From a virus, in the IMG/VR virus record IMGVR_UViG_3300009314_000003, positions 83,989 through 147,988 of that record: a DNA stretch of 64,000 bases; one strand, 5' to 3'. The translations under genes were made by a program, and so were the position numbers. Within the stretch, counting starts at the first letter, position 1; each line of letters opens with the position of its first letter. This document shows, in pieces, positions 23,003-58,700 of this stretch. The notes beneath the pieces were generated by a model. The model was not told the DNA's origin. It worked only from the letters and a program-made list of their open reading frames with translations, and ran no database searches.

Positions 23003-26000
23003 ATGCCTATTTTTAATTGTCCAGATAATAATTGTAATCATTGTGGAACAGATTTATGTATTTGTTGTCCAAATGGATATGAATCTTTTGATGCTGGTGA
23101 TACAATTGAAGTAAAATGGCAAGCTCCATATAATTCTACTGATTATGTTGTAAATGTCACACTTTATAAAGGAAATGAATTTGCAGCAATAATAGCAGAA
23201 TATTTTAATGCCCATCCAACAAGCTATTATCGTAAAAGCTCAATTCCTTGGACAATTCCAACATTTCTTGAACAGCGAGATGATTATAGAATTAAGGTAA
23301 CTATTATTGCTGGAGACAATCTTGGTCAATCGGATTTTAGTGATAATTATTTTGAAATCGTTAATACTATAAATCAACCTCCTGTAGCTGATGCTGGAGA
23401 TGATCAAACTGTTGTGGAAAATAGTATTGTACAACTTGATGCTTCAGGTTCATACGATCCAGATGGTGATACAATAACATATGCTTGGAGTGCTCCTGTT
23501 GGAATTACACTTACCAATGCAAATAGTGTGAATCCAATTTTTACAGCTCCAGAAGTTACTGAAGATACAGAATATCAATTCATACTTGTTGTTAATGATG
23601 GGGAATTTGATTCAAGTCAAGATGCTGTAACTATTACAGTAGAAAACTTCATTCCTAATCAGGCTCCAACTGCAGATGCAGGGGAAGACCAGGATATCAA
23701 TGAAGGTATGTTTGTTACTCTTGATGGTACAGGTTCATTTGACCCTGAAGGTAGTAATCTAACTTATACTTGGACTGCTCCGGTAGGAATTACATTAAGT
23801 AATGTTAATGCTGTTTCTCCAACATTTACTGCACCAAATGTAGATGATGATACTCCTTACTCGTTTACTTTAGAAGTATCAGATGGAGATTTAACAGATA
23901 CAGATGATGTAACAATAACTGTTCTCAATGTAGCAGTACCGCAGCCTCCTGTAGCGGATGCCGGGGATAACCAGACAGTTGATGAAGGAGATTTAGTTAC
24001 GCTAGATGGGTCTGGTTCATATGATCCTGAAGGTGAAGATGTGACATATATGTGGACTGCTCCAGATGGAATTACTTTATCAGATCAATCAATTGTAAAT
24101 CCTACATTTACAGCTCCGGAAGTCATTAGTGTTACTGATTATATATTTACTCTAACTGTAGAAGATCCACACGGATTGTCAGATACAGATAATGTTACAA
24201 TAACTGTAAATCCAGTTGCTGATCCACCAGTTCTTGGTGGACAATATAATTATAATAATGACGACTATTATACTGCTGTTAGCCTAATTCGGACTAATAG
24301 TGGTGTATATAACTTTACGCCTGAATACTTTTTAGGTCCTGGTAATCCATGCAGCCATTGGCGCATTTGCCCTGATGGCCATGAAGGTGCTAACTACGAT
24401 ATTAGCGGTTCTTTCCCTTTCCCTGAATGGGAAGATGTTATCTACTTCAATCATACATATACCGACATTCCAAGTGGTGACTTACTTGGAACGTGGCGCT
24501 CATATGTAAAATATATAGGTGATGACTCCTGGACGGAATTCCTTGGAGGCTTGGAGATTACCCAGGATATGTTACCTCAAGCTCTCCCCGCGGAGCTAAC
24601 TATTGAGGCATCATCTATCCAAAACCACGTTAATATCACTCTTGGAGATGATTTTACCTGGATGTATACCGCCGGGGGTGTATGGAGTGATATTACACAC
24701 TGTATATACCCCGAGGAGTACTCTAGTCCTTACCTCCTTGCTGATATAGTCCCTGATCAAAGTAATTGTGTTAATTATAGTGATGGGGGTCTATGTCATA
24801 ATCCTAACGATCTGATGGCAGGTAGTGTAATATCTCAGTATAACTTGTCTACGACGGCGTATGGGCCTTACAACTTAGAACTAACAATAAGGGGAATGAC
24901 ACAAGGATCAATAACATGCCGGCTTGGGTTGGAATCTCCAAGTGCAACATTTAATTCTAACGGAACACACTCAGGAAACATAGAAGCATCCTCTTTGTCC
25001 CCAAACACCTTCTATATCTACCCTACTCCCGACTTTAACGGGATAATTGATAATGTCTCTCTCAAACTTTCTGGAGGAGGAGATGAATTAATAAGTAACG
25101 GTGATTTTTCCAACAGTCTCCAAGATTGGAGTGGAACTACTTGTTGGGAACATGCCTATTTTCCTTTCCCGATCCCGAAAAATACTGTATCACAGGAAGA
25201 TTGGTGTGTGAATACCCATGGTCTATGTTTACACACATTTTCCGACGATGTAACGACATGGCACGTTCCCACTTATTATGCCCGGGGGTATTTAGCGGGG
25301 GCCTTTTCTGTCTTCCTCGGAACCTCCTCCTATTCTTCGTCAATAAACTATGAAAACTATCCCTTAAACCCTTATGAACTCACAATAACCTGTGATGTTA
25401 GTGATATACTTACTGTATACTCAAACGCCCAATTCTATATCTATAATAATACTTACCAGAGCGAGGCACTTACACCTGGTAATGGTATTATCACCTACAC
25501 AGTAACTGCAACTGCAGGTAATTCAGCTAACTTGGAGGGTAATTGGACAATAGAATGGCAGGATGGTAGTGGTTCTACACTAGAATCTATTACCCAATCT
25601 GTTCCAGCCGACACCTTCTCACCACCACCCGATTTCGGGAATGTAGATTATTCACTTGAGCATCCAAATGATTGGAACCTCACAATTACCTGTGATGTTA
25701 GTGATATACTTACTGAACACTCAGACGCCTTATTCTATATCTATAAAGAGGGTTCCACAGGTACATCTATACAACCCAATGATAATAACACGATCACCTA
25801 CACAGAAACTGCAGGTAATTCAACGGACTTGGAAGGTAATTGGATAATAAAATGGCAGAACGGTGGAGGTGAGGTAATAAATTCCACCACTTGCACGGTT
25901 TCAAGTCTTCCACAGTTTGAGGATGTAACAGATAACCTCTCAATAGATTATAACAATTGGCCCGCCACCCCCTTTGAACTCACCATAGAATGTAATGTTG

Positions 26001-27676
26001 CGGCTATAATTAATGATTCCCAATACCTAGGGACTGATGAGTTCTATATCTCTAATAGTAACTACTCAAGTGATCCGCTTCCACCTGATAATAATGATAT
26101 TATCACCTACACAGCTGCAGGCGACGAGGGAGGTTTAGAAGGGATCTGGACAATAGAATGGCAGGATAGTGAGGGTGGTTTAATAAATTCCACTGACTAT
26201 CCTATCACTATCAACCACACCCTACCTAATTTTGTATCAGATGAACATTATACATCAATAAACTATGAGGACTGGAGTGGAAATCCCTATGAACTCGCCA
26301 TAACCTGTGATGTTAGTGATATACTTACTGAACACTCAGACGCCTTATTCTATATCTATAAAGAGGGTTCCACAGGTACATCTATACAACCCAATGATAA
26401 TAATATTATCACCTACACAGTAACTGCAAGTGATTCAGCGGATTTGGAAGGTAATTGGATAATAAAATGGGGAAATAGTAATGATTATTCAATACGTTCT
26501 ATTAGTCACCAAGTAACTGAATTCCCCTCTCCCCTCGTCTTAAATACTCCTACATCCGATTGGCAGGTAGATTATAATAACTATTCCTCAAACCCTTATG
26601 GGCTCACAATTACCTGTGATGTTAGTGATATACTTACTGCGCACTCATACGCCCAATTCTATATCTATAAAGAGGGTTCCACAGGTACATCTATACAACC
26701 CAATGATAATAATATTATCACCTACACAGTAACTGCAACTGCAGGTAATTCAGCTAACTTGGAGGGTGATTGGACAATAGAATGGCAGGACAGTGGGGGT
26801 AATGTAATAAATTCTGCTACCTGCTCAGTCAGCACCTCCCCGTCCCTTCCCACCTTTGGGGAGGTAGAATACACCATCATACCAGATCTTAGCGTGTCAC
26901 CGGTACGATATGATTTTAGTATAGAGTGTGATGTTGATGATATACTTACTGAACACTCAGACGCCCAATTCTATATCTATAATAATACTTACCAGAGCGG
27001 GGCACTTACGCCTGGTAGTGGCGTATGGGGTAAAACAACGAAGTGTGTAATTGGGTACCTTGCGGAGAACGAGTTAGAAGGGACCTGGACAATAGAATGG
27101 CGGAACAGTGGGGGTGAGGTAATAAATTTTCATAATGAAGAAATAGATCAGGACGTTATTCAAGGAGTAACGCTTGATGGTACTACATACAACACACCCC
27201 AGGGCAACTCATTTTACATTCAAATACCAGGAGGTTCCTCTCCATACAAACAAAATACTACTGATATTGGCCCAATACAACTACAATTAACTCAGTATGA
27301 AACTACCAAGACCTGGACTTCTCCACAGCCGTACAACTCTGATACTGGTGTATCAATGCTCTCCCTGCACTCCTATGACCTGGTTCCATTTACAACAGGA
27401 GATAGAGAAACCTGGCTCAAATATGAGATAGTAACAGAAGGAGGAGATACCTACCCAATAACCCCCGTAAATAGGCCCGGGCAATACCCGGTCATATATA
27501 ATGTGAATAGTACCCTACCGGAGGAGCTTAGAAGTGATAGGCAACAAAACTTTAATGAGGGGTTCATAGACCAGAAGGTGTTTTCCTGGAAAGTTAGAAT
27601 TACAATGCTCCGCCCGGGGAATGAGGTTAATAGAACCCCTATAGTTTATACATACCGGATGAGATATTATGAGTGA
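23003..27676 (+). CDS. Large fibre protein with three PKD domains and tandem Ig-like repeats
   Basis: 1557 residues. The N-terminal ~120 hold a Cys cluster (NCPDNNCNHCGTDLCICC) and an Ig-like sheet. Three PKD domains follow (~125-405), each with the ADAGDDQTV-like start, DGSGSYDPEG and YTWTAP signatures. From ~770 to ~1400 there are about seven Ig-like units with CDVSDILTEHSDA and FYIYKEGSTG. Some units are almost identical at DNA level. One late unit is overwritten by sequence inverted from 11 kb. The first ~1.2 kb is much more AT-rich than the rest, consistent with a recently acquired PKD module. Probably a receptor-contacting fibre. The start has no good Shine-Dalgarno. Confidence 0.75.
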   Translation: MPIFNCPDNNCNHCGTDLCICCPNGYESFDAGDTIEVKWQAPYNSTDYVVNVTLYKGNEFAAIIAEYFNAHPTSYYRKSSIPWTIPTFLEQRDDYRIKVTIIAGDNLGQSDFSDNYFEIVNTINQPPVADAGDDQTVVENSIVQLDASGSYDPDGDTITYAWSAPVGITLTNANSVNPIFTAPEVTEDTEYQFILVVNDGEFDSSQDAVTITVENFIPNQAPTADAGEDQDINEGMFVTLDGTGSFDPEGSNLTYTWTAPVGITLSNVNAVSPTFTAPNVDDDTPYSFTLEVSDGDLTDTDDVTITVLNVAVPQPPVADAGDNQTVDEGDLVTLDGSGSYDPEGEDVTYMWTAPDGITLSDQSIVNPTFTAPEVISVTDYIFTLTVEDPHGLSDTDNVTITVNPVADPPVLGGQYNYNNDDYYTAVSLIRTNSGVYNFTPEYFLGPGNPCSHWRICPDGHEGANYDISGSFPFPEWEDVIYFNHTYTDIPSGDLLGTWRSYVKYIGDDSWTEFLGGLEITQDMLPQALPAELTIEASSIQNHVNITLGDDFTWMYTAGGVWSDITHCIYPEEYSSPYLLADIVPDQSNCVNYSDGGLCHNPNDLMAGSVISQYNLSTTAYGPYNLELTIRGMTQGSITCRLGLESPSATFNSNGTHSGNIEASSLSPNTFYIYPTPDFNGIIDNVSLKLSGGGDELISNGDFSNSLQDWSGTTCWEHAYFPFPIPKNTVSQEDWCVNTHGLCLHTFSDDVTTWHVPTYYARGYLAGAFSVFLGTSSYSSSINYENYPLNPYELTITCDVSDILTVYSNAQFYIYNNTYQSEALTPGNGIITYTVTATAGNSANLEGNWTIEWQDGSGSTLESITQSVPADTFSPPPDFGNVDYSLEHPNDWNLTITCDVSDILTEHSDALFYIYKEGSTGTSIQPNDNNTITYTETAGNSTDLEGNWIIKWQNGGGEVINSTTCTVSSLPQFEDVTDNLSIDYNNWPATPFELTIECNVAAIINDSQYLGTDEFYISNSNYSSDPLPPDNNDIITYTAAGDEGGLEGIWTIEWQDSEGGLINSTDYPITINHTLPNFVSDEHYTSINYEDWSGNPYELAITCDVSDILTEHSDALFYIYKEGSTGTSIQPNDNNIITYTVTASDSADLEGNWIIKWGNSNDYSIRSISHQVTEFPSPLVLNTPTSDWQVDYNNYSSNPYGLTITCDVSDILTAHSYAQFYIYKEGSTGTSIQPNDNNIITYTVTATAGNSANLEGDWTIEWQDSGGNVINSATCSVSTSPSLPTFGEVEYTIIPDLSVSPVRYDFSIECDVDDILTEHSDAQFYIYNNTYQSGALTPGSGVWGKTTKCVIGYLAENELEGTWTIEWRNSGGEVINFHNEEIDQDVIQGVTLDGTTYNTPQGNSFYIQIPGGSSPYKQNTTDIGPIQLQLTQYETTKTWTSPQPYNSDTGVSMLSLHSYDLVPFTTGDRETWLKYEIVTEGGDTYPITPVNRPGQYPVIYNVNSTLPEELRSDRQQNFNEGFIDQKVFSWKVRITMLRPGNEVNRTPIVYTYRMRYYE
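25691..26712 (+). repeat. Near-identical Ig-unit DNA repeats
   Basis: A ~100-bp block starting TGTGATGTTAGTGATATACT and running through the codons for YIYKEGSTGTSIQPNDNN occurs near 25691-25789, 26305-26404 and 26613-26712. The first two are almost perfectly identical and the third differs at a few bases. Flanking parts of the units are much more divergent, which points to recent gene conversion or unequal crossover. Confidence 0.85.
27020..27058 (-). repeat. 39-bp inverted ectopic copy of 11148-11186
   Basis: This is a perfect reverse complement of 11148-11186. It replaces the stretch that in sister Ig units encodes TYTVTATAGNSAN; here the frame stays open and reads VWGKTTKCVIGY. The match ends sharply at both sides, so this is the recipient of a short templated replacement. 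Confidence 0.95.
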
Positions 27677-35146: not shown

Positions 35147-36817
35147 ATGCCATATTCAAAGGCAAAAGGAAGTATCATAGTCAAACCCTCCTTCATCAGA
35201 GATGCGCCGCGTATTAAGGTTGGGGCATCACCCATTATCACACTACAAGATACTGAAACAGGAGATCAATGCATGTTAGGTTATAATCCCCCCTGCATAG
35301 TCCCCGGCTGCATTGGATTATGGGATTTTAGTGATGCCAGCAGTGCGGGTTTGTATGATAAGAGCAGAGCAGGTAATAATCTCTTGCTCTATAACACATG
35401 GACCCCAGAACAATATAAGGACTCAATATTTGGTGCTTCTTACACCTTTAATAGCAATAATTACACAGGCATAGTTGATAACTTCTCTGTAGGAGGTGCC
35501 TTTACTATCGAGGTCCTTCTAAGAATTATAACCGATGGCTCAGATAAGTGGATCATTGATTTTGATCAGGGTGGACAGTATGGCTGCTATCTAATGCAGG
35601 TCGGAGGTAATGATTTTCGATTTAGTGCCTACGGAACGGAAATTAGTTCGGGTTTTATAGTTGGAGATCAAATAGATAAGTGGGTACACCTGGCTGGTAC
35701 TTATGATGGTACATCACTGTATCTATATATCAACGGAAAGAAATGGAATAGTGGAACTGCATCTTCTCAAGACCTAGTAAATAAAACCCTAACAATAGCC
35801 GCAAGGAATGATGGGTCTTCCCCAGCAGACTATGAAATAGCAGCAGTACGTATATGCCTTAGGGCTCTAAGACCCTACGAATTTATACATCATTGGTATT
35901 TTAACTCGATAGTTGGTGGGTATATAAGTTCAAATGGCGCAGTGTTATTCAATGATCAGATATCAACCTTCAGAAGCGGAAAGGTGTTTACCGTACAAGC
36001 TGATTGGAATAGCGAAAACAGTTTTAAATCAAGTAATATAATAGTTAACGGCATCAGAGGTATCCCTGATGAGGGTTTTGTACAAAGTCAAAAGGATTTC
36101 TCCAAACTTGTAGTTGGCGGAACACCATACAGTAACAGCAAGACAGTGGGTATGTGGGTTTTCGATGGTAGTCTTACTTCCGAGGGAAAAGTAGTTGATT
36201 GGTCCGCAAATAGTAACCCCGCCGACCTTATCGGATTAACTGAAGAGGACCTGGTAAATACTTACTACGGAAGGTATTATGAAACAGACACCTCCAAGTA
36301 TGTAAGTATTCCTAACAATAATATGTCCCTTGACTTCCTATCAGGGGATGCAACAATAGACATACTGGTATCAATACCGGACACATCTCTGGATACTGTA
36401 TTACTATCTAGATTTGAGGATGAAAATAACTTTCTCATTCTCAAATACAATTCCACAGCCGAGGAATTAGAAGCATCCATCAAACTTGGCGGGGCCTATA
36501 TACACCAAGCCATCGCTGGTTGGTCTCCTATTCAGGAGAATTGGTATCACATTGCGTGGGCCATTGAAAATGGGTTAGCTAATCACTTATTCGTTGATGG
36601 GGTTGAAGCAGCACTAACAACCGATATACACACCGGGGGAAATATATTAATCTCTGCTCCAATTGAGATAGCCAAGTATGATACTTCATTTAGCGGACTG
36701 AGAATGGCATTCCTTAGAGTCTCTTCCTGTGTCATGACCTCTGACGAAGCTTCTGTACATGGCCAGTGTTTGTTCAAGGGTGACATATCCGTGCAGGACT
36801 TACTACTACCGAGTTAA
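35147..36817 (+). CDS. Double LamG-domain fibre protein
   Basis: 556 residues with two LamG units. The first is ~45-245 (CIGLWDFSDASSAG, FTIEVLLRII, WVHLAGTYDGTSLYLYING). The second is ~325-550 (TVGMWVFDGSLTSEG, TIDILVSIPD, WYHIAWAIENG, LFVDGVEA). A ~70-residue linker with a predicted strand pair separates them. It probably presents two carbohydrate-binding heads. Gap to the upstream gene is 38 bp. Confidence 0.8.
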   Translation: MPYSKAKGSIIVKPSFIRDAPRIKVGASPIITLQDTETGDQCMLGYNPPCIVPGCIGLWDFSDASSAGLYDKSRAGNNLLLYNTWTPEQYKDSIFGASYTFNSNNYTGIVDNFSVGGAFTIEVLLRIITDGSDKWIIDFDQGGQYGCYLMQVGGNDFRFSAYGTEISSGFIVGDQIDKWVHLAGTYDGTSLYLYINGKKWNSGTASSQDLVNKTLTIAARNDGSSPADYEIAAVRICLRALRPYEFIHHWYFNSIVGGYISSNGAVLFNDQISTFRSGKVFTVQADWNSENSFKSSNIIVNGIRGIPDEGFVQSQKDFSKLVVGGTPYSNSKTVGMWVFDGSLTSEGKVVDWSANSNPADLIGLTEEDLVNTYYGRYYETDTSKYVSIPNNNMSLDFLSGDATIDILVSIPDTSLDTVLLSRFEDENNFLILKYNSTAEELEASIKLGGAYIHQAIAGWSPIQENWYHIAWAIENGLANHLFVDGVEAALTTDIHTGGNILISAPIEIAKYDTSFSGLRMAFLRVSSCVMTSDEASVHGQCLFKGDISVQDLLLPS

Positions 36818-36827
36818 ATATATCTAT

Positions 36828-37586
36828 ATGGGCAAAATACTCACACGTAACCAGATAGCAACAATTACCCGGGCTGAGAAACCACTTAGTATGTTGGGGA
36901 CGGCGGACTACTTCGCTCCTACCCAACACCTTGGGTACCACCCGGAAGAGTTCTCGGTGGAGGCTGGTACTTTACTATGTATGAATTTCACACAGGAAAG
37001 TAGTGATGGGGGAACAACACTGTATGATCTATCAACAGGTAACCATCACGGGACAATAACTGGAGCTACATGGTCAACAAATTCTGTGTGGCGTGAGAGT
37101 TTAGAATTTAATGGAGTTGATAACTACATTGATCTAGGTAGTTATGAAAATATGCAGAGTGCTGCGCTCAATATAACCCTCGAGGCCTGGGTAAAGATTA
37201 ACCTAATCCAGACGGGGGGAGTAATTACTTTTATAGATACCAGCTTGATACCAACCTTCTCGCTCTCCATCTTAGTTTCGGGGTCAACTACCTACCCAAG
37301 TTTTGAAATTAATAATACGACTACATACAGCGACACCTACGATATAAACGATGGTAACTGGCATTATCTCGCTGCTACTTACAATGGTACCGCTATAGCA
37401 CTCTATGATCAAGGGGAGAGGATTAGCTCAACCAATCTACACGGGGCCATAAATTACAATGGCGATGAAAATATGTATATAGGTAAGACAGGTACGGACA
37501 TATTTGGTGGAAACATCGCGGGGGTTCGCATAACCAGAAGATATAAGCCGACGCTCGCCTTACATAAGTACTACCATGGAGGATAA
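36828..37586 (+). CDS. LamG-domain fibre protein
   Basis: 252 residues from MGKILTRNQIATITRAEK at 36828; this begins after the previous stop, whereas an upstream in-frame ATG at 36759 would overlap it by 59 bases. LamG hallmarks: LLCMNFTQESSDGG, LEFNGVDNYIDLG, LEAWVKINLI, WHYLAATYNGTAIALYDQG. No Shine-Dalgarno is obvious, so translation may depend on the upstream gene. It overlaps the next ATG by one base. Confidence 0.78.
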   Translation: MGKILTRNQIATITRAEKPLSMLGTADYFAPTQHLGYHPEEFSVEAGTLLCMNFTQESSDGGTTLYDLSTGNHHGTITGATWSTNSVWRESLEFNGVDNYIDLGSYENMQSAALNITLEAWVKINLIQTGGVITFIDTSLIPTFSLSILVSGSTTYPSFEINNTTTYSDTYDINDGNWHYLAATYNGTAIALYDQGERISSTNLHGAINYNGDENMYIGKTGTDIFGGNIAGVRITRRYKPTLALHKYYHGG

Positions 37587-38908
37587 TGGCCATGCCTGAA
37601 CAATGTATGTGTTACATACCCTTTGATAACAGTAATGCTGGCGGGCGGGTAGTATCAGAATGGTATAACCAGAATCTACCCATAGAAGGAAAACCACCCC
37701 TACTGAGAGGTAAGCCCTGGGCCCATTCAGGTAGACATGGAATGATGCTGGCGGAGGCTACCACTAACCTGAAGAGCCTTGGTGATTTCTCAGATGGTTC
37801 CCTTGGCAGCTTAACGGCCGGGGGAAATAATTCATTGGAAATAGCCACAGAGTTAGCTCTCTTTGGAAATTACTCCGCCAAGGTAGAGTACCAAAACTCC
37901 AACGAATTATGCACCGATAGTCTAACCCTATCAGGCAATATTACTTACCACGTTAGTTGCTATATTTGGGTTCCCCCCACCTGGGACTCCAATGATACAA
38001 TTCGCATTGAGCCAGATACATCCGCATTTAATGGATATTACTCGGTCAAGAGTAATTGGGCCGGAAACGCTCCAGAGATGTATGGAACCTGGCACAGACT
38101 TGTAACAGAGGTAACAACTCAAGATTTAGTCGGTAGCCCTGTAGCTGCCTACTTCAAACTTCAAACATATTCAGGGCCTACGCCGGGTAGGTTTCTTTAT
38201 TTAGATGGAATACAACTTGAAGAGAAAGCATATGCCACACCCTTTGATGTTACTAACAAGGATGGAATCACACCTAGAAAGACGCAACATCTTCGTATTC
38301 CAACTGCTGGAAACTTTCCCGGGCCTGGAGGAGGTTCAATATCAATCAACCTCCGGCCCTGTTGGAATAATAATACAACCGGTAAAGACAGAGTTCTATT
38401 TTCCATGGAGGATTCCCTTACGGATAGCTGGCTTATATTTTACGATAACATGAACGAACAATTTGTCTTTAGGATGCAGAGTGGAGACAACTTTACAGAT
38501 ATAAGAAGCCCAACGCAAACCATTTCCACGGGGGAACTTGTTACACTCATTACCACGTGGAATGGTACGGAGGGACAATTGTATGTCAATGGACTAGAAG
38601 CTAAAACTGATAGTAGAATACAATGCAGCATAAGAACACCGAGTACCATAGTACTTGGAGATCGTCAGGCAGAACTTGGTAGTTGGACGGCTAATGCCTC
38701 CTTCAATGAGGTGGGTATATTTAACTTCCCCCTCACGCATAGACAGGTGTTAGACATCAACCATATAGCAGAGGCCGGTTACTTGCTTAGCAACCATGGC
38801 AATATCGCGAGGGACCCCAAGTACCACCCTACAATCACTGATCCGGAGAGTGGAATGATTTTCATAGGCACGGACTACAACATTAATGGTACTAATGTGG
38901 CCTACTAG
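37586..38908 (+). CDS. LamG fibre protein ending in the first part of an Ig-like domain
   Basis: 440 residues, starting at ATG 37586 or 37592 behind a GGAGG. A carbohydrate-binding-like sheet (~60-215) and a LamG unit (~240-395, GGSISINLRPCWNN, VTLITTWNGTEGQLYVNG) are present. The last ~28 residues (PTITDPESG..IFIGTDYNINGT) match the opening strands of a bacterial Ig-like domain and stop mid-domain. The missing strands appear at the start of the next gene (39038). Either the ancestral gene was split, or two proteins share the domain. Confidence 0.75.
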   Translation: MAMPEQCMCYIPFDNSNAGGRVVSEWYNQNLPIEGKPPLLRGKPWAHSGRHGMMLAEATTNLKSLGDFSDGSLGSLTAGGNNSLEIATELALFGNYSAKVEYQNSNELCTDSLTLSGNITYHVSCYIWVPPTWDSNDTIRIEPDTSAFNGYYSVKSNWAGNAPEMYGTWHRLVTEVTTQDLVGSPVAAYFKLQTYSGPTPGRFLYLDGIQLEEKAYATPFDVTNKDGITPRKTQHLRIPTAGNFPGPGGGSISINLRPCWNNNTTGKDRVLFSMEDSLTDSWLIFYDNMNEQFVFRMQSGDNFTDIRSPTQTISTGELVTLITTWNGTEGQLYVNGLEAKTDSRIQCSIRTPSTIVLGDRQAELGSWTANASFNEVGIFNFPLTHRQVLDINHIAEAGYLLSNHGNIARDPKYHPTITDPESGMIFIGTDYNINGTNVAY

Positions 38909-38974
38909 CGGCAGTGCAGGGCCATACACGTTTCTCGGTATATACCATTGACATATCTATAGTAGAGAAACAAT

Positions 38975-39009
38975 TTTAACACAACTTCCTCGAGGAGATT
39001 GTTGTTAAA
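38975..39009. other. Imperfect inverted repeat between split Ig genes
   Basis: TTTAACACAACTT and the complementary arm GATTGTTGTTAAA enclose CCTCGAGG. The arms pair with one or two bulges. It lies in the 129-bp gap separating the two halves of an Ig-like domain. It could be a transcript-processing hairpin or weak terminator; no T-run follows. Confidence 0.55.
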
Positions 39010-39037
39010 CTCATACAAAATAGGATAACTAATAATA

Positions 39038-39706
39038 ATGCCAGATGTAAACACAGTAACTATTTACGGCGGGGCGCTGGCGGGCACCGTGATCGGCGAG
39101 GCAACATATAATGCTGCAGCACAAACCTGGACCTATAGTGCCTCGGGTCTCAGTGGTTTTAACATGCTTAAGGCAGTATCCGAGGATTTAGCCGGTAACA
39201 TAGCCGCTAGTAGTGTAATCAAAGCATATTTCGGGGCTACACAGATACCAAGTGCGGATCTAATTGATGATAGTGGAGCAAGTGATACTGATAACATCAC
39301 TAATGACAATAGCCCCCGGATCAACTTTGCTCTTGATCTATCCTCCTGTGTAACTGCTATGGGTGTAAATATGTCTGCTTCCTCTATAACAACAGTATAC
39401 CTGGAACGAAAACCTAATAGCGATGCCGATTGGGCTGACGCAGTAGAAATGTCTACCGACGCACCAACTATAACTGTGGCAACCGGAGCTGTTTCACACG
39501 ACTTCACCCAGGCAACTCTTGCTGATGATGATTATGACGTTCGGCTCCGATGGAAAGATGCATTGGGTACTTACTCAAGTTATAGTGACATACTTACCTT
39601 CAGAGTAGATACCTCAGTCCCCGCACCAACTATAACCACACCGGGATGGGGTGATGGGGTGATATATATTGGTAGTACCATCAATATGGCAGGTACCGCT
39701 ACTTAA
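39038..39706 (+). CDS. Ig-like fibre protein lacking the domain start and domain end
   Basis: 222 residues. It opens mid-domain with PDVNTVTIYGGALAG and the closing strands LKAVSEDLAGN of an Ig-like unit whose first strands are at the end of the preceding gene. A central beta unit follows (VDTSVP linker at its end). The C-terminus is the opening of another Ig-like unit (PTITTPGWGDG..IYIGSTINMAGTA) that breaks off where the upstream protein does. The rest of this second unit is encoded at 40178. Reasonable as one link of a fibre chain. Confidence 0.65.
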   Translation: MPDVNTVTIYGGALAGTVIGEATYNAAAQTWTYSASGLSGFNMLKAVSEDLAGNIAASSVIKAYFGATQIPSADLIDDSGASDTDNITNDNSPRINFALDLSSCVTAMGVNMSASSITTVYLERKPNSDADWADAVEMSTDAPTITVATGAVSHDFTQATLADDDYDVRLRWKDALGTYSSYSDILTFRVDTSVPAPTITTPGWGDGVIYIGSTINMAGTAT

Positions 39707-39732
39707 ATAGTAATAACACACACACATGCATA

Positions 39733-39774
39733 GGTAGTATATGAGGGTCCGGATAACCCTGGGCCCTCTCTACC
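39733..39774. terminator. GC-rich hairpin downstream of the split Ig gene
   Basis: GAGGGTCC (39743-39750) pairs with GGGCCCTC (39761-39768), and the outer GGTAG (39733-37) pairs with CTACC (39770-74). It is a stable stem-loop in the gap after the 39038 gene. The following bases are only modestly T-rich, so an attenuator or processing site is as likely as a strong terminator. Confidence 0.5.
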
Positions 39775-39817
39775 TTGATTTAAATAACATAATAACAATG
39801 GAGGAGAGACACCAATT

Positions 39818-40174
39818 ATGAAACTTAGTGAACTAATTAATTCAGCAGACGCCCTTGGACGTCTCATGGAACAACCCATAAAAGCCAAGGGTTCCTTTAG
39901 ACTTGCCAAGGCAGTAAAACAGGTACAGCCGCTAGTTGCGTCGTATGAAGAGACACGATACAGGCTTATAAAGAAGTATGGAGAAAAGGGCGAAGAGGGT
40001 GAATACTCCGTAGAGCCCGGCTCTAAGAACTGGGACAAGTTTGTGACTGAGCTAGATAAGCTCTTGAATGAGGATGTAGAGGTCAAGCTCAACAAAGTTA
40101 CATTATCGAGTATAGTTCAGGCTGAATTAACCGCGGCTGACGCAATGCAATTAAGGTGGTTGGTAAAGGAATAA
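39818..40174 (+). CDS. DUF1617-like small phage protein
   Basis: 118 residues (MKLSELINSADALGRLMEQ; LAKAVKQVQPLVASYEETRYRLIKKYGE; LTAADAMQLRWLVKE). Length and layout resemble the DUF1617 family seen in phage tail regions; function unknown. GGAGGAGAG lies about 10 bases upstream. It sits exactly between the two pieces of a split Ig-like domain, in a ~470-bp segment that interrupts an otherwise continuous fold. Confidence 0.6.
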   Translation: MKLSELINSADALGRLMEQPIKAKGSFRLAKAVKQVQPLVASYEETRYRLIKKYGEKGEEGEYSVEPGSKNWDKFVTELDKLLNEDVEVKLNKVTLSSIVQAELTAADAMQLRWLVKE

Positions 40175-40177
40175 GTT

Positions 40178-40483
40178 ATGCCAATGGATACCACAGAGGT
40201 TAAGCTATATAATCAGATTGGAGGATCGCCCGACCCAAATACTGATACCTACCTGGGTAATGATGTTACCTTTGATCAGTCCGGCGGATGGGAAATAAAT
40301 GTGACCTCTCTTGGAGAGGGGCGATATACAATATATGCTGAGTCACAAGATATGGCAGGGAATAAAGCTTTATCCGATGCTTGTGCTATTAACAAAGTAC
40401 CTGATCCTATGAAAGTTTCCGGACTTGTGTCGTGGACAGTAGGTGAGTTTGACGGGGTTCAGATTGGAAGCTTTTTCTCTTAA
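40178..40483 (+). CDS. C-terminal part of an Ig-like fibre domain as a separate gene
   Basis: 101 residues. It starts PMDTTEVKLYNQ and continues GGWEINVTSLGEGRYTIYAES.DMAGN, the later strands of a bacterial Ig-like (Big-type) domain. Its first strands are at the C-terminus of the 39038 protein. On its own it cannot make a full sandwich. It begins three bases after the DUF1617-like stop, so it may be coupled to it. Confidence 0.6.
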   Translation: MPMDTTEVKLYNQIGGSPDPNTDTYLGNDVTFDQSGGWEINVTSLGEGRYTIYAESQDMAGNKALSDACAINKVPDPMKVSGLVSWTVGEFDGVQIGSFFS

Positions 40484-44101: not shown

Positions 44102-44545
44102 CTAGCTTATCTTAACCTTAATACCCTCAGGCTCGGTCTCTTCCTGTTTAGGCAAGGTAATGGTAAGAACACCATTACAATAAGAGGCCGAAACCTTCTC
44201 ACCGTTTACAGTCGTTGGTAGAGTTACCCTGCGCATGAAGGTACCGGTACTGCGCTCCTGGCGGAAGTGTTCTACCTCTTCCTCGGTGCGCTCACCGGCG
44301 ATGGTTAGGGTACCATCATCTATAGAGATGTCAATATCTTTCTTCTTCATCCCTGGTAGCTCTACAGCTATCTGGTAAGCGTCACCCTGTTCCGTTATGT
44401 CCAGGGCAGGACGCCACGAGTTTCCAAACTTTCTGCGAAGGAAGAAGTCGTCACTCATGACCTCTTCCATCATCCTTTCAAATGTATTCGTCACACGAAA
44501 GGGGAAGATTGAAAATGGACTGTGTTGTTTAACTAGCTGTATCAT
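44102..44545 (-). CDS. hsp20: Hsp20/alpha-crystallin small heat-shock protein
   Basis: 147 residues. The alpha-crystallin domain spans ~48-140: PALDITEQGDAYQIAVELPG, KKKDIDISIDDGTLTIAGER, FMRRVTLPTTVNGEKVSASY, NGVLTITLPK, ending in IKVKIS, an I-x-V form of the usual C-terminal I-x-I/V motif. Such chaperones hold unfolding proteins in oligomers; in phages they may assist capsid or tail assembly. AAGGAGAAAGAACAGAA precedes the ATG. Two similar 20-bp direct repeats lie ~100-150 bases upstream and may be regulatory. Confidence 0.93.
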   Translation of the reverse strand: MIQLVKQHSPFSIFPFRVTNTFERMMEEVMSDDFFLRRKFGNSWRPALDITEQGDAYQIAVELPGMKKKDIDISIDDGTLTIAGERTEEEVEHFRQERSTGTFMRRVTLPTTVNGEKVSASYCNGVLTITLPKQEETEPEGIKVKIS

Positions 44546-47915: not shown

Positions 47916-49685
47916 TTAGAACCTCCTAAGTACTACTCTACTAAACTCCTGGGGAAGTTTAGTGATATTATCTACACTCACTAGATTATCAAAGGCGGCG
48001 CGCTCATACATACCACCTCCTCCTATAACAATACAGATTACCTGCACCTTCTGACGCTCTGCCATTTGCTTCAGATCCCGAATATTATAGCTACCACTTG
48101 TATCCCCATCAGTAAGAATAACTAGCAACTTTCGCTCCGCTTGATTATGCTCCAGCATCTTTAATCCCACACGATACGCAAGAGGTAGATTTGTACCTCC
48201 ATCGGCGCTGAGAGCACGATCAATCTCTGCATATATATCCCGTTTCCCATTTCTGATTGGGTACACCTCACAACCAAAGCCGAACATATCAAGCCGCAGT
48301 TCTGGTATGGTAGCTATGGCTTTGTGAAAAGTCGCCATAATCTTCTTACATATAGCAGATCGAGACCCAGCCATTGAACCAGAACGATCAAACATAAAGA
48401 CAGCGTGTGTACGACTTATAGCAGTCTTTACTCCCGTAATGTTTTGCATTATTCGTGCCTTCTCTAGGGGCATAGTTTTCACCTGATAGAAGTTTGGGGC
48501 GTGTAATTTGCGCCCCTCCACATCTATATATCGGCCCTTATATGCCCGGGCAAACATAAGGCGTTTAAAATATCGTCTAAGTTTAAAAGCTGCACTCTTA
48601 TTAGGCAGGGCTATTCCTGTATGATTTGAGGCTGGAGGTATAGAGGTATATCCATGCCCACCGTCATTCTCATCCTCTGGAATATATTGCTCTATATTGA
48701 GTCTCTTATCAAGTTTAGTTACAGCCCTACAGAGCTCCTCCTCGGACTGCCTTTCCTCGCGTAATTGATCATAACGTGCTGAGGCCTGGGAGGACTCAAA
48801 TTCCTCCTTAATTTTACTCTTAGCAAGTTTGTCAGCTGCCTGACCAACTATACTTTTCAGCTCCTCTGGAGATAATTTACCATCACCTCCAGCCCACCTT
48901 TGTAAAGGCTCTCCGGGGCCAACACCCCTGGACATTTCCTCTAGAGTAGGAATACTTTGACCCTGCACCAAATTCTTCTTCTCTTCCTCATACCACTTTC
49001 GAAAAATGGCTGCAAGATCATTTGTAAGAGTTGATCTCTGTTGGAAGAAGGTGTGTCTGTTGGGAGAGAAAAGACGACGGCAATCATGCATTACCTTTTT
49101 AATGTCTTCAAAGGTGTCGTGTAGGGGATGATCATCCGGGAGCTCTCGTATCACACCTCCACCAAATACTATGCCCAACATAGGCCGATAAATAGCGGCC
49201 ATTCTCACGAGAAGCTGGTATCTTTCCTTTACTGTGCCGTCCGGCAGGTCTTTTAAATCACCATGTAACGCCGTAGCAAACTCGTTGGATATCTGTAAGT
49301 ACCGCGTAGCACCAAACCACTCCGCCGGGATTACGTTATTCTCATTGGCATCATTTACTAGATTAGACATGAGCCGACGAAACTTACTTAACTCTATAGG
49401 TTCGCCAGAGATAATATGGCCCAACTCATGAAAGAGAGATGCCACCAGAATAGTCCACCACAATTCATCTTGCAATTCACCGGAGGTTCGTACACCCCAA
49501 AGAGCAATTACGGAGTCTTCTGTCAACGGAAGAGTTATCTGATACTTACCTTTAACCAGCTTCAGAAGGCGGGATTTTGGCTCTAATTCCACACCCATGA
49601 ACGGACCATCACATAGGTTAACATTAAGCACACCAAGCACCCGCTCCAAGTAATGCCTCACGGCGTAGTACATATTACCTTTCAT
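47916..49685 (-). CDS. VWA-domain protein with HELGH motif (CobT-like partner of AAA+)
   Basis: 589 residues from MKGNMYYAV at 49685; GAGGAGTTACT upstream and the 11-base overlap with the previous gene support this start. LFHELGH at ~86-90 is a zinc-peptidase-like motif. A charged middle (~240-330) precedes a VWA domain with MIDAS FDRSGSMAG at ~433 and ILTDGDTSGS later. VWA proteins work with MoxR/CobS-type AAA+ ATPases in metal chelation or complex remodelling, and that ATPase is encoded just upstream. Since a B12-dependent reductase is nearby, a CobT-like role is attractive, but HELGH suggests other functions. Confidence 0.7.
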   Translation of the reverse strand: MKGNMYYAVRHYLERVLGVLNVNLCDGPFMGVELEPKSRLLKLVKGKYQITLPLTEDSVIALWGVRTSGELQDELWWTILVASLFHELGHIISGEPIELSKFRRLMSNLVNDANENNVIPAEWFGATRYLQISNEFATALHGDLKDLPDGTVKERYQLLVRMAAIYRPMLGIVFGGGVIRELPDDHPLHDTFEDIKKVMHDCRRLFSPNRHTFFQQRSTLTNDLAAIFRKWYEEEKKNLVQGQSIPTLEEMSRGVGPGEPLQRWAGGDGKLSPEELKSIVGQAADKLAKSKIKEEFESSQASARYDQLREERQSEEELCRAVTKLDKRLNIEQYIPEDENDGGHGYTSIPPASNHTGIALPNKSAAFKLRRYFKRLMFARAYKGRYIDVEGRKLHAPNFYQVKTMPLEKARIMQNITGVKTAISRTHAVFMFDRSGSMAGSRSAICKKIMATFHKAIATIPELRLDMFGFGCEVYPIRNGKRDIYAEIDRALSADGGTNLPLAYRVGLKMLEHNQAERKLLVILTDGDTSGSYNIRDLKQMAERQKVQVICIVIGGGGMYERAAFDNLVSVDNITKLPQEFSRVVLRRF

Positions 49686-49854
49686 AGTAACTCCTCTGTT
49701 TTTCTGCTTCGCATTTTCCACACCTAAGGTCTACCCGGACCACAGTACTATCAGCCTGGACAATTTTGTAGGCCTGCTCTACAACCCGAGCATCAACCTT
49801 AGTATCACATACGATACAAAGTGGACTGATTATAACAGTAGTATCCTTACGCAT
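49675..49854 (-). CDS. Zinc-ribbon microprotein
   Basis: 59 residues from MRKDTTVIISP (49854), overlapping the AAA+ stop by 8 bases and the VWA start by 11. Two Cys pairs (CIVC and CGKC) form a likely zinc ribbon. Its location between the ATPase and VWA genes suggests that it acts with them. A longer frame to 49929 exists but overlaps the ATPase gene far more. Confidence 0.65.
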   Translation of the reverse strand: MRKDTTVIISPLCIVCDTKVDARVVEQAYKIVQADSTVVRVDLRCGKCEAEKQRSYYER

Positions 49855-51307
49855 CCCTGTAGACAACCGAAGCTGGGATACGAATCCCGAACTTAGTCTC
49901 CAAACGATTAGCCACATCATCTCTGACATGGGGATCGGGGATAGGATTAATCAGATGATCAATGGATGATTCCATCCATGCCGAAGAGGTGTTACCGTAG
50001 ATACAAGCAGTCCATATCCAATTAGCCACGGCGGTGTAACCAAAGTCGAAACCAAGTCCGTTACCATCTTTAGATGGCTTATTCAGTAACTTAAAACACT
50101 GAACACCCCGGTCCAGGTTAATTGCCTTTGGAAGCTCTGGATACTCCCCCAGAAGCTTACTGTACACCGGTTTCTTCTTTATAATAGCATGGAACACCTT
50201 CTTAATAAAGCCTACCTTATCGGAGTAATCATGATACACCATGGTTACCCGACGGGCCTCAGCATTACTAAGTCGCTTTAAATCATCAACCAAGTAACGG
50301 TCTGAAGTAATTGGGTTTGCCGTCATCAGAAATTGAATATGGCTGAAATCTACCTGATTCATTACCTCTCCATTCTTGGAGGATTCTATGCGGTAGTAAC
50401 GATCCTCATCAGAGAAGAGCCTGTAGAACTCTCTCCGCGTTTCATCTGAGAATGCATTATACTCCTCTAACACGACGATACCCTTGAGACCAAGTTCCTT
50501 GGTTTTGCGAGCAAATGTGGTAAGAGTTCCCTCCAGGACAAAAGTACCATCGGCGTCGAAATCATCACGATCAAAGAGACGATCTCCTTCAGTCCTAGCA
50601 TTGGCATCAATTATAAGCCCAGCCATCCCTCTATCTTGCGCACGAGATAGAATATAACGGGCCAGGTATGATTTACCTACCCCCGTTGGGCCAACCATAG
50701 CAACACAAGGTGTTCCTTCGGCCAGATAACCAAACACCTTAGCTAGAACAGGTTTCTCGGGCACAATTGATTTTGGTGGGACAACCCTGTATTCCTCCGG
50801 GATATCAGCCTTTGTTTTATTCATTGATTGCGCCATTATCTGAATAACCTTCTCAGTCATATCCTCGCCATGAAGAGTCATATCCTGTGGAACATAATCC
50901 TCCATACTTACTCTTTTTTCCAGGAACTCACTTGAAAGCCGTGAGCGGTCTATGTCCTCTACCTGATTGAGAATAGTATCTGAGGCTGCGCATTGAGCGT
51001 ACTTAATCTCTGAGGAGATACAAAGTTCGTCCAGGGAGATAACTCCTTCCATATACCGTTTTATAGTATCACCATTTATATCAATAGTGAAGTCACAATC
51101 ATCAGGCTCAGAGCGCCCCATCAAAACGAAGGGAGCGTCCTCTCTAACATTATTATCATCATTACCATCGGTATCAGCTTGTTTAAATCGGTATTGAATA
51201 GTCACATCCCGTGTTCCACTTCCATCCGCCAAAGGCAAATCACGTATATGAACTGAAGGAAGAGAAGCGCTCAACAATGCTTTCTTCATTTTGTCTTTCT
51301 TTGTCAT
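49847..51307 (-). CDS. AAA+ ATPase, CobS/MoxR-like
   Basis: 486 residues. Walker A GPTGVGKS at ~206-213; Walker B-like GIVVLEEYNAFSDE at ~275; a sensor MTANPITSDRYLVDD; Arg residues follow in LKRLSNAEARRV. The fold and the E-E of the Walker B region fit dynein-related MoxR/CobS ATPases. The N-terminal ~180 residues are acidic and unrecognised. It is coupled to a zinc-ribbon microprotein and a VWA protein, the usual partner of this class. Cobalt chelation versus complex assembly cannot be decided from sequence. Confidence 0.78.
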   Translation of the reverse strand: MTKKDKMKKALLSASLPSVHIRDLPLADGSGTRDVTIQYRFKQADTDGNDDNNVREDAPFVLMGRSEPDDCDFTIDINGDTIKRYMEGVISLDELCISSEIKYAQCAASDTILNQVEDIDRSRLSSEFLEKRVSMEDYVPQDMTLHGEDMTEKVIQIMAQSMNKTKADIPEEYRVVPPKSIVPEKPVLAKVFGYLAEGTPCVAMVGPTGVGKSYLARYILSRAQDRGMAGLIIDANARTEGDRLFDRDDFDADGTFVLEGTLTTFARKTKELGLKGIVVLEEYNAFSDETRREFYRLFSDEDRYYRIESSKNGEVMNQVDFSHIQFLMTANPITSDRYLVDDLKRLSNAEARRVTMVYHDYSDKVGFIKKVFHAIIKKKPVYSKLLGEYPELPKAINLDRGVQCFKLLNKPSKDGNGLGFDFGYTAVANWIWTACIYGNTSSAWMESSIDHLINPIPDPHVRDDVANRLETKFGIRIPASVVYRDA

Positions 51308-55794: not shown

Positions 55795-58700
55795 TTATAT
55801 CTCACAGGCATCTCCATCGCAAAACTTATCTGGGATTATCTCATGGTCCTTCATCCTACCAAATCGCAGTGGTTTTAACTTGCTTATCATATTATTGTAT
55901 GTGTCCTCATCTATCTCTTCATAAGGCATCTGTTTATAGGCCCCACCTGGTATACGGGGCAGAAACGTAACAGCCTTCAACTGATACTGAAAGTACTCAA
56001 GTGCCTGCTTTAAACATGGCCCCTCTGTAACAGGGTCAAATTGAACAGTTGCACTGACACTTTGATCAGCCCAATATCTCTGCGCCAACGCTGCGAGGCT
56101 AAGCTGTTCCCACATAGAAACATCGCGGCCAGTACGAACACTCTTACCAGCGTCAACTGGAAACTCTACAACAACAGTCGTGTCTCCACCATCAGTTGCT
56201 TTCTCAACTTTATAACCAGCTGCTCTTATGGGCCCTAATAAATCACTATCCTTAGCCATTCTTACTCTACGTACATAAAAGCGCGACATTGGGAAATGGA
56301 TTCCTGGTGTACTTCCGGCCAATAGAGAAACCGATCCAGAGGGCTTGACGACGGTTGATTTAATAGACCTGGGAACTGCTAGCCAGTCCGAGTAAACCTT
56401 GTCATAATACTGAATTGTCTCATACCCGGTGGACATCCATTCCTTTAATTCATTAACGCTATGCTTAGCAAGAAACTGGGCCAGTCCGCTAATACTACAT
56501 CCTATACGCCTATTTCTAAGCATGACTCTATTACTCATTGGCCAGTGTGTGTTAACAAGCGTGACGGTTTTGGAATATAGATAAGCATACTTCAATGTTC
56601 GTTTCATATCCTCTATATCATCGTGTCTTGAAGGAAACACCTCTACAAGATTGCATAATTCTCCACCTCCTTCCAGAGTTGCCTCTCCACAGTTATGAAC
56701 AACGAAACCGTTAGCGTCAAAGGCATGTGCCTTGTTTACAACAGCATCGTACACACGTTCCATATTGTCTGGCTCAATCGAAGCCACCCTAACCACGAAT
56801 CGGCTCCGATTTAGTCTGCGTTTGTAACCAACCAGCAATTTGCGAAGTCGGTTGGCCTTGTCGGTGTGATTAAACCCCACATTCTGTTCAAAGAGGGCCA
56901 AATTATCACCTGATATAACCAGTTCGTGATTGGTCCTTGTCCAATATTTCTTCAACTCGCCATTACCATCAGGAAGGTATTTGTATCCCTCTTCTCTACG
57001 ATCCTGGTAGATAGTTGACATTATACCTATCCGAAGCAACATCCTCTGGATGACATTCAAGGTAACAAGATCAGATTGGCTAAGCCTTATGCTCACACCC
57101 TTACTATGAGTTCCCTGCACTGATCCAGCCACATCAAACATCCCTCTTATAAAACCGATATGGAATTTGCTGCTGGTATACTCTACGCCTTGGTCAAGAT
57201 GCTTATGCCCTTTGTGAATTCCAAATTGACCGGCTAGTGAACACAGAGAGGTCATACGAATTTTATTGGTCAGATAACCATTACCTACCCGAAGGCCCAG
57301 CAAGTAACCTTCCCCCTCTGTTCCTCTTCCTTCCCACTCATTCCGATCACGGTGGTTATTCATTACCAACATGTCACCAGGCCTCAACCTGCCTGCCCTT
57401 ACCCACTCAGAATATACTTTCTTCTGTGTGACTTTATTGGCCCTTAGAACTTTATGGTTATCAGTTACTCTGAGATGATACCCCTCTTTTGTCTCTATTC
57501 GCAGCACGTTTCTAACACCAGTGCTGAAGAAACCAGTTTGGCACTCATACTGCTCGGAGTTAACTATAGCCCTAAATGGCTTGCCGATTAACTCCGATAC
57601 TTGTTTTGGTCCGGCTTCTGTGCTAATCAGAGTATCTCCGGTGACGCAAGGATTGCAGCCCATCACACGGGAGTCCTCACGAGTACGGCCATTATTCATT
57701 AAACCATAATCACGCATATTATCCAACCAGACAAGCCCAGGTTCACCATTTCTCCGTATCCTATCACAAATTGGTCCATAATCAATACCAGGCCTAACTA
57801 CAACAGAATTATTACTACTCCACCCAAACGACTCCCTGTAGGGGTTAATATCGTAGTTCTTCAAATCTAGGTACTCGTCCTTATTACATGGGCCGAGGCT
57901 GAGAAGCGCACTGTTATGAACTAATAGACCGTCTTGAATAATAAATTCATTTGCTCCGGGAACACTAATATCGTATGTCGGTAATACTTTTCCTGTTAAT
58001 TCTATCTTAATTACTTCAATAGGAATTAGAGTTGTTGTTTCGTCTGAATAATGATCATAGGCAGAAGTTACAATTTGTTTACACGAGAGAGTCCCTGAAC
58101 GAGATCTAAACCCCTTCATTAGCTGTTTATCTTGCTTTAACCACTCAGTAGGATACCCGTAATCGTGTTGAGAACACTTCAAGCCCTTAGTTTGAATTCT
58201 ATATTTAATAGCGTACTCTGCCACCTTATCTTCAAACACTGATTCAGCAATTGGGCCTACTACATTTAAATTAAATATATCTTGCCACGAGTCATTGCGG
58301 GATGGGAACGTACCATCTTTAAGGCGGGTTGGAATACCCAAACTAGCATACACCGACTGTACTTCTCTCAAGAATACATGATAAACACTTGTTACCGCAT
58401 TTAATGGACGTGTTTTACAACCCCCATCGGCATCAAACAGGCCGGCTAAGTACGCTGCACGAATTTTAGGACGCCCTTGCATAATAAAATCAGGCACACG
58501 CATGGGCTCATTAGGCTTCTTAATTTGGCTCAAGTATAGGGCCAATTGTTTAGACTGGGATCTAATCTTTATAGACCCATCTTTAGATGATGGCTTAACT
58601 TCGTTAATCTTAGTACCAAAGCGTAGTATTTGCGATCTCACTTTATGGTGCATTCCATACTCATCACCTGGACAAGCAATTGAAATGTGTGCATTAAATC

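Follow-up and report, generated by a model that had tools for sequence, protein, structure and literature searches.

The 64-kb stretch of DNA that we analysed (the window) is the last part of a 148-kb IMG/VR virus record, and the virus infects bacteria. A baseplate J-like protein is encoded, pointing to a contractile-tailed phage, and a sheath-like gene outside the window gives weak matches to the sheaths of Moorella phage MTATph1 and Bacillus phage KLEB27-3. At 33-41 kb the window holds consecutive fibre genes, several of which carry LamG/ConA-like domains. Two Ig domains encoded here are split across adjacent genes, and the homologous point of the split is the same in both (Table 1). Both cuts fall in the B-C loop, after a conserved GTxx and before a conserved P of the family alignment. 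An in-frame stop precedes the separate ATG of each C-G half by 2-4 codons. The second gap is 471 nt long in total; the ORF that follows it begins MPMDTTEVKLY and starts 3 nt behind the 118-aa ORF. A first-pass annotation of this DNA had already described Ig domains split repeatedly at one homologous position, and this description holds: the ORF boundaries are as it gave them, the 39038 and 40178 proteins match Big_13 and both cuts lie between GTxx and P. It was also right that successive genes share the Ig halves, with the corrections that the A-B halves have the limits given in Table 1 and that the second gap holds an ORF.

Table 1. Features of the divided Ig region, in window positions
Feature	Position	Strand	Basis or remarks
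Fibre gene 1, 440 aa	37586..38908	+	Carbohydrate-binding-like region, LamG/ConA-like domain (Laminin_G_3, E 5.8e-11), C-terminal A-B half of Ig1
A-B half of Ig1, PTITDPESGMIFIGTDYNINGTNVAY, TAG directly after	38828..38905	+	Aligns with the family and with the second A-B half
Gap 1, 129 nt, non-coding	38909..39037	+	Two hairpins; three stops in frame, not counting the TAG at 38906
Fibre gene 2, 222 aa: C-G half of Ig1, whole Ig2, A-B half of Ig3	39038..39706	+	Big_13, E 9.9e-11
C-G half of Ig1, starts MPDVNTVTIYGG	39038..39250	+	HMM rank 2 of 417 N-termini
Ig2, whole domain inside one gene	39251..39604	+	Pfam stretches, HMM
A-B half of Ig3, PTITTPGWGDGVIYIGSTINMAGTAT, TAA directly after	39626..39703	+	HMM rank 1 of 417 C-termini
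Gap 2, first part: hairpin GAGGGTCCGG..CCTGGGCCCTC (fold z -2.1), then strong ribosome-binding site	39707..39817	+	
118-aa ORF inside gap 2, phrog_1401	39818..40174	+	phrog_1401, E 4.6e-12
Fibre gene 3, 101 aa: C-G half of Ig3 and short tail	40178..40483	+	Big_13, E 5.8e-6

Several other features of this genome deserve mention. Just after the sheath-like gene, outside the window, are four ORFs for LAGLIDADG endonucleases and a group I intron (G000:C1 54372-58853, equal to L040:14372-18853); the intron itself was detected with the Rfam library at L040:17593-17835 (77 bits). A class II ribonucleotide reductase of 1,389 aa (55795-59964, minus strand) is interrupted by one or more intein-type inserts with intein splicing, Hint and LAGLIDADG/homing endonuclease domains, and the gene is about 1,960 nt long in many relatives. 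An HNH/homing-type ORF lies 2 kb downstream of the split Ig region. Also on the minus strand are a small heat-shock protein (HSP20; 44102-44545) and an AAA_5 ATPase adjoining a von Willebrand A-domain protein (47916-51307). On the plus strand, a 1,557-aa protein (23003-27676) has several near-identical repeats of about 100 aa (LTITCDVSDILTEHSDALFYIYKEGSTGTSIQPNDNN) behind PKD-like repeats, and the gene listed at 36759-37586 has a start that overlaps the preceding gene with almost no SD signal, the ATG at 36828 (MGKILTRNQ) being the likelier start.

Family assignment of the half-domains

The Pfam profile for Big_13 (PF19077, cut-off 27 bits) matched the 39038 protein with 42.5 bits over three stretches and the 40178 protein with 27.2 bits, both above the cut-off; the 37586 protein was not matched by this profile. 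To judge the halves independently of this profile, we built separate A-B and C-G models from 1,151 public Big_13 domains (87 loci, 99 ORFs) and searched them against the ends of every ORF of 60 aa or more in the 148-kb record, 417 in all. At N-termini the C-G model ranked 40178 first (E 3e-8) and 39038 second (E 8e-5), with no other significant match among the 417. At C-termini the A-B model ranked 39038 first (E 0.04 for the sequence) and 37586 fourth, with an E of 0.62 that is not significant alone. The weak A-B half of 37586 is assigned because of its similarity to that of 39038: the two align with a score of 52, which none of 2,000 shuffles reached, and 39038 is the best partner of the 37586 half among 416 C-termini. 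The two C-G halves align with a score of 48, again unequalled in 2,000 shuffles. Both parts of the divided domains keep the family pattern, including the C-terminal DxAGN motif and strand B. Adding the A-B halves to the C-G halves did not raise the Pfam score, which indicates that the A-B halves have diverged, and a PDB sequence search with the joined halves returned no significant match.

In sequence there is a parallel with the Ig arrays of giant bacterial adhesins (Big_13, SiiE-type BIg), which belong to the same sequence family and have the same fold. Over its full length the 39038 protein can be aligned, at 26-34% identity, with slices of tandem Ig arrays from bacteria, and these slices are out of phase with the domains: a C-G half, the whole next domain and the A-B half of a third. 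The three genes therefore look like one array cut twice. The bacterial arrays are almost always uninterrupted chains (a single domain, at an ORF start, is cut by an ORF edge among the 1,151 at 87 loci), whereas here genes end inside domains and the rule of one continuous chain per Big_13 domain is broken in two of the three.

The first-pass annotation had pointed to relatives as a place where a fused version might be found, and this lead came to nothing: IMG/VR and the phage records yielded neither a split nor a fused form, and two near-identical contigs of the same virus (G001 and G034) are without the fibre region. Searches of IMG/VR gave no relative of 39038, of 37586 or of the Ig halves. 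A tblastn search of INPHARED with the fibre proteins, the joined Ig domains and the Big_13 consensus gave no fibre relative, the sole matches being long contigs of bacteria and short records without annotation that are titled as phages. Big_13 was absent from 33 records, 32 of which share the ribonucleotide reductase. A limited literature search found no relevant report of donor-strand or split-Ig fibres in phages.

Coding state of the halves and the nature of the gaps

The state of the four halves was assessed by codon preference, trained on 19 other genes of the window. The in-frame signal was +0.26 and +0.35 in the A-B and C-G halves of Ig1, and +0.37 (39605-39703, the A-B side) and +0.34 in those of Ig3, and in all four halves it remained positive up to the junction. 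It was negative in gap 1 (-0.60) and in the non-coding part of gap 2 (-0.27), with sharp shifts at the gene ends. It had been proposed earlier that random decay would not easily cut two domains at the same point. The coding state of the halves does argue against decay; the coincidence alone is not strong, since two cuts within 2 residues of a 97-residue domain would arise with a chance that we estimate at about 5% if random, and it is suggestive only.

The two gaps resemble neither one another nor any other part of the genome and contain no repeats, and the idea that they are two copies of one element is ruled out on this ground. In-frame stops are TAA and TAG in gap 1 and TAA, TAG and TGA in gap 2. 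The 118-aa ORF has a strong SD (duplex -10 kcal/mol), and fibre genes 2 and 3 have modest SD signals; scans for promoters and terminators gave no more than expected by chance. At 38990-39040, a hairpin of gap 1 contains GAGGAG followed by TTG codons and could encode a short leader, which would end at the TAA just before the 39038 ATG, making translational coupling possible. Relatives of the phrog_1401 ORF (28-47% identity) were found in four IMG/VR contigs (L132-L135), in three of which they lie downstream of a dUTPase-like gene, and in other phages they are not beside Ig halves. We had considered the 118-aa ORF as a chaperone for the Ig halves. This is unsupported, its relatives following nucleotide-metabolism genes, convergent with fibre-like genes and outside Ig arrays.

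One reading of this layout is that a single fibre gene was recently disrupted by two insertions, a 129-nt piece and a piece with the phrog_1401 gene. The halves would then be young remnants that do not act together, and the virion may lack the distal Ig parts. We consider this unlikely. It fits a phage that is rich in mobile elements (the LAGLIDADG ORFs, the group I intron, the intein-type domains of the ribonucleotide reductase and the HNH/homing-type ORF), and also the position of the gap 2 gene, which elsewhere lies outside Ig genes. Our reasoning against it is that: (i) the two breaks coincide at codon level, with a stop immediately following and a start immediately preceding each junction; (ii) all four halves retain a coding-like signal; (iii) there are no repeats or common sequence at the gaps and (iv) the 40178 half is a strong family match.

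It is also conceivable, if quite improbable, that the pieces are joined as one polypeptide at the RNA or translation level, by intron splicing, ribosome bypassing or read-through. There is a group I intron in the genome, and both gaps are multiples of three (a chance of 1 in 9) and contain hairpins. However, no Rfam intron match was obtained at E up to 1 in 33-45 kb with the same library that detects the intron elsewhere in the genome, and to our knowledge self-splicing introns are all larger than 129 nt. Simple read-through or recoding of a single codon is ruled out by the several in-frame stops of more than one kind, and matching take-off and landing codons for bypassing were not seen at the junctions. 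Furthermore, the ATG of each downstream half, so close to an in-frame stop, argues against joining by any of these routes.

Predicted structures of joined and separate halves

Pair 1, that is the A-B half of 37586, gap 1 and the C-G half of 39038, could be modelled with AlphaFold as a single chain because the gaps keep frame, and stops were read as serine. The model has eight strands in one complete sandwich (pTM 0.69; a single chain, with alignment rows that contain the intact fold), with pLDDT values of 86-90 in the A-B half, mostly 51-60 in the gap peptide and 92-94 in the C-G half. When 39038 was modelled alone (pTM 0.55), the C-G half reached 82-89 and the trailing A-B half 57-75, with strand B and the 30-36 strand mostly missing. 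Foldseek matched the joined model to Ig/FnIII-type sandwiches along its whole length, and the best structural match of the 39038 model was to tandem SiiE Ig domains. The head-to-tail joining suggested in the first-pass annotation gains from the complete sandwich of the single-chain pair and from the weaker ends and missing strands of the middle protein modelled alone; it gains less than it might, the alignment rows themselves favouring the joined fold. Since a single chain was modelled with intact-fold rows, the pair-1 model speaks for compatibility of the halves and not for binding.

These models also bear on the possibility that each half is used alone, for instance in a flexible tail or a beta element of a trimer, its Ig resemblance reflecting ancestry only. 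The C-G half retains good pLDDT by itself. Fibres are usually trimers, and strand exchange within a trimer is possible, which we count for this reading. On the other hand, both parts keep the family pattern, DxAGN motif and strand B included, and a 26-residue A-B hairpin standing alone would probably have no core of its own. We give this reading little credence. An assembly or sequencing artefact of a metagenomic contig is the least probable explanation: the region comes from an IMG/VR contig and no second copy of it was found, but sequencing errors do not account for gaps as long as 129 and 471 nt, the latter with a complete gene inside, the coding signal changes sharply at gene ends, and in other parts of the genome the proteins are 100% identical to those of contigs from two further samples.

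A proposed fibre stalk of three chains

We favour the possibility, at what we would call an even chance, that the Ig stalk is produced as three separate chains, which reassemble in the order of their genes through two-strand fragment complementation. The halves are still coding and complementary, and so the chains most likely rejoin after translation. According to this model, a LamG-tipped stalk with three tandem Big_13 Ig domains would ancestrally have been one protein and would now be encoded as three chains, cut twice in the Ig B-C loop. The A-B strands of 37586 would fill in the C-G half of 39038, whose own A-B strands would do the same for 40178. The result would be a non-covalent chain, 37586-39038-40178, with an open-ended middle unit, two end units and the LamG part on 37586. 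The third gene follows the 118-aa ORF, which has a strong SD, after only 3 nt, and this counts in favour of the model. Counting against joining are the unrelated gaps, one with an unrelated gene, which fit accidental insertion, and also the modest SD signals of genes 2 and 3, the non-significant family match of the 37586 half, the Pfam score that the A-B halves do not improve and the lack of any split or fused form in the databases searched.

Head-to-tail joining, as drawn from sequence and models, is our best inference rather than a result, and could fall either way. The fuller proposal, that successive proteins are joined by shared Ig domains, that gene order equals chain order and that the split is maintained by selection, is tentative and leans towards doubtful. 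In such a chain the middle unit, having two open ends, might even occur more than once. One-gene ancestry, actual binding, its order and specificity, and presence in the virion are all points that we infer. The first-pass annotation had set joining and the splitting of a long ancestral gene against each other. We keep both, and they are not mutually exclusive: a long gene may have been split by insertion and its pieces may still join.

There is precedent for ordered chains of this general kind. In donor-strand exchange fibres (chaperone-usher and type V pili, TasA and archaeal pili), strands of a neighbouring subunit complete a beta-sandwich, as is proposed here; TasA of Bacillus subtilis forms such a fibre (PMC9674648). 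In the present case the previous chain would give two strands, an A-B hairpin from its C-terminus, to a Big_13 Ig domain cut in two, and the annotated neighbours include no usher or pilus genes. Two-strand fragment complementation would differ in this from the one-strand donor complementation of pili, and on present evidence we do not count the split fibre as a member of the donor-strand class, since its polymerisation is a prediction. Among phages, the long tail fibre of T4 is built of several proteins whose genes lie in order and which join end to end (gp34-gp35-gp36-gp37), and the present locus likewise has several fibre genes in order; we know of no T4 fibre subunits that meet through one shared Ig fold. 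The T4 gene 39/60 topoisomerase provides a case of a gene divided by a mobile insert whose pieces still cooperate. It differs from the present locus, where there is no homing gene inside the gaps, the cuts are two and parallel, and a half-domain lies on each side.

If the three-chain model is correct, this phage would be using shared Ig folds as connectors between separately encoded parts of its fibre, a natural split-Ig joint. This would suggest a way for fibre modules to be exchanged as whole genes, without any need to fuse reading frames, and the short natural half-domain pairs would be candidate protein connectors.
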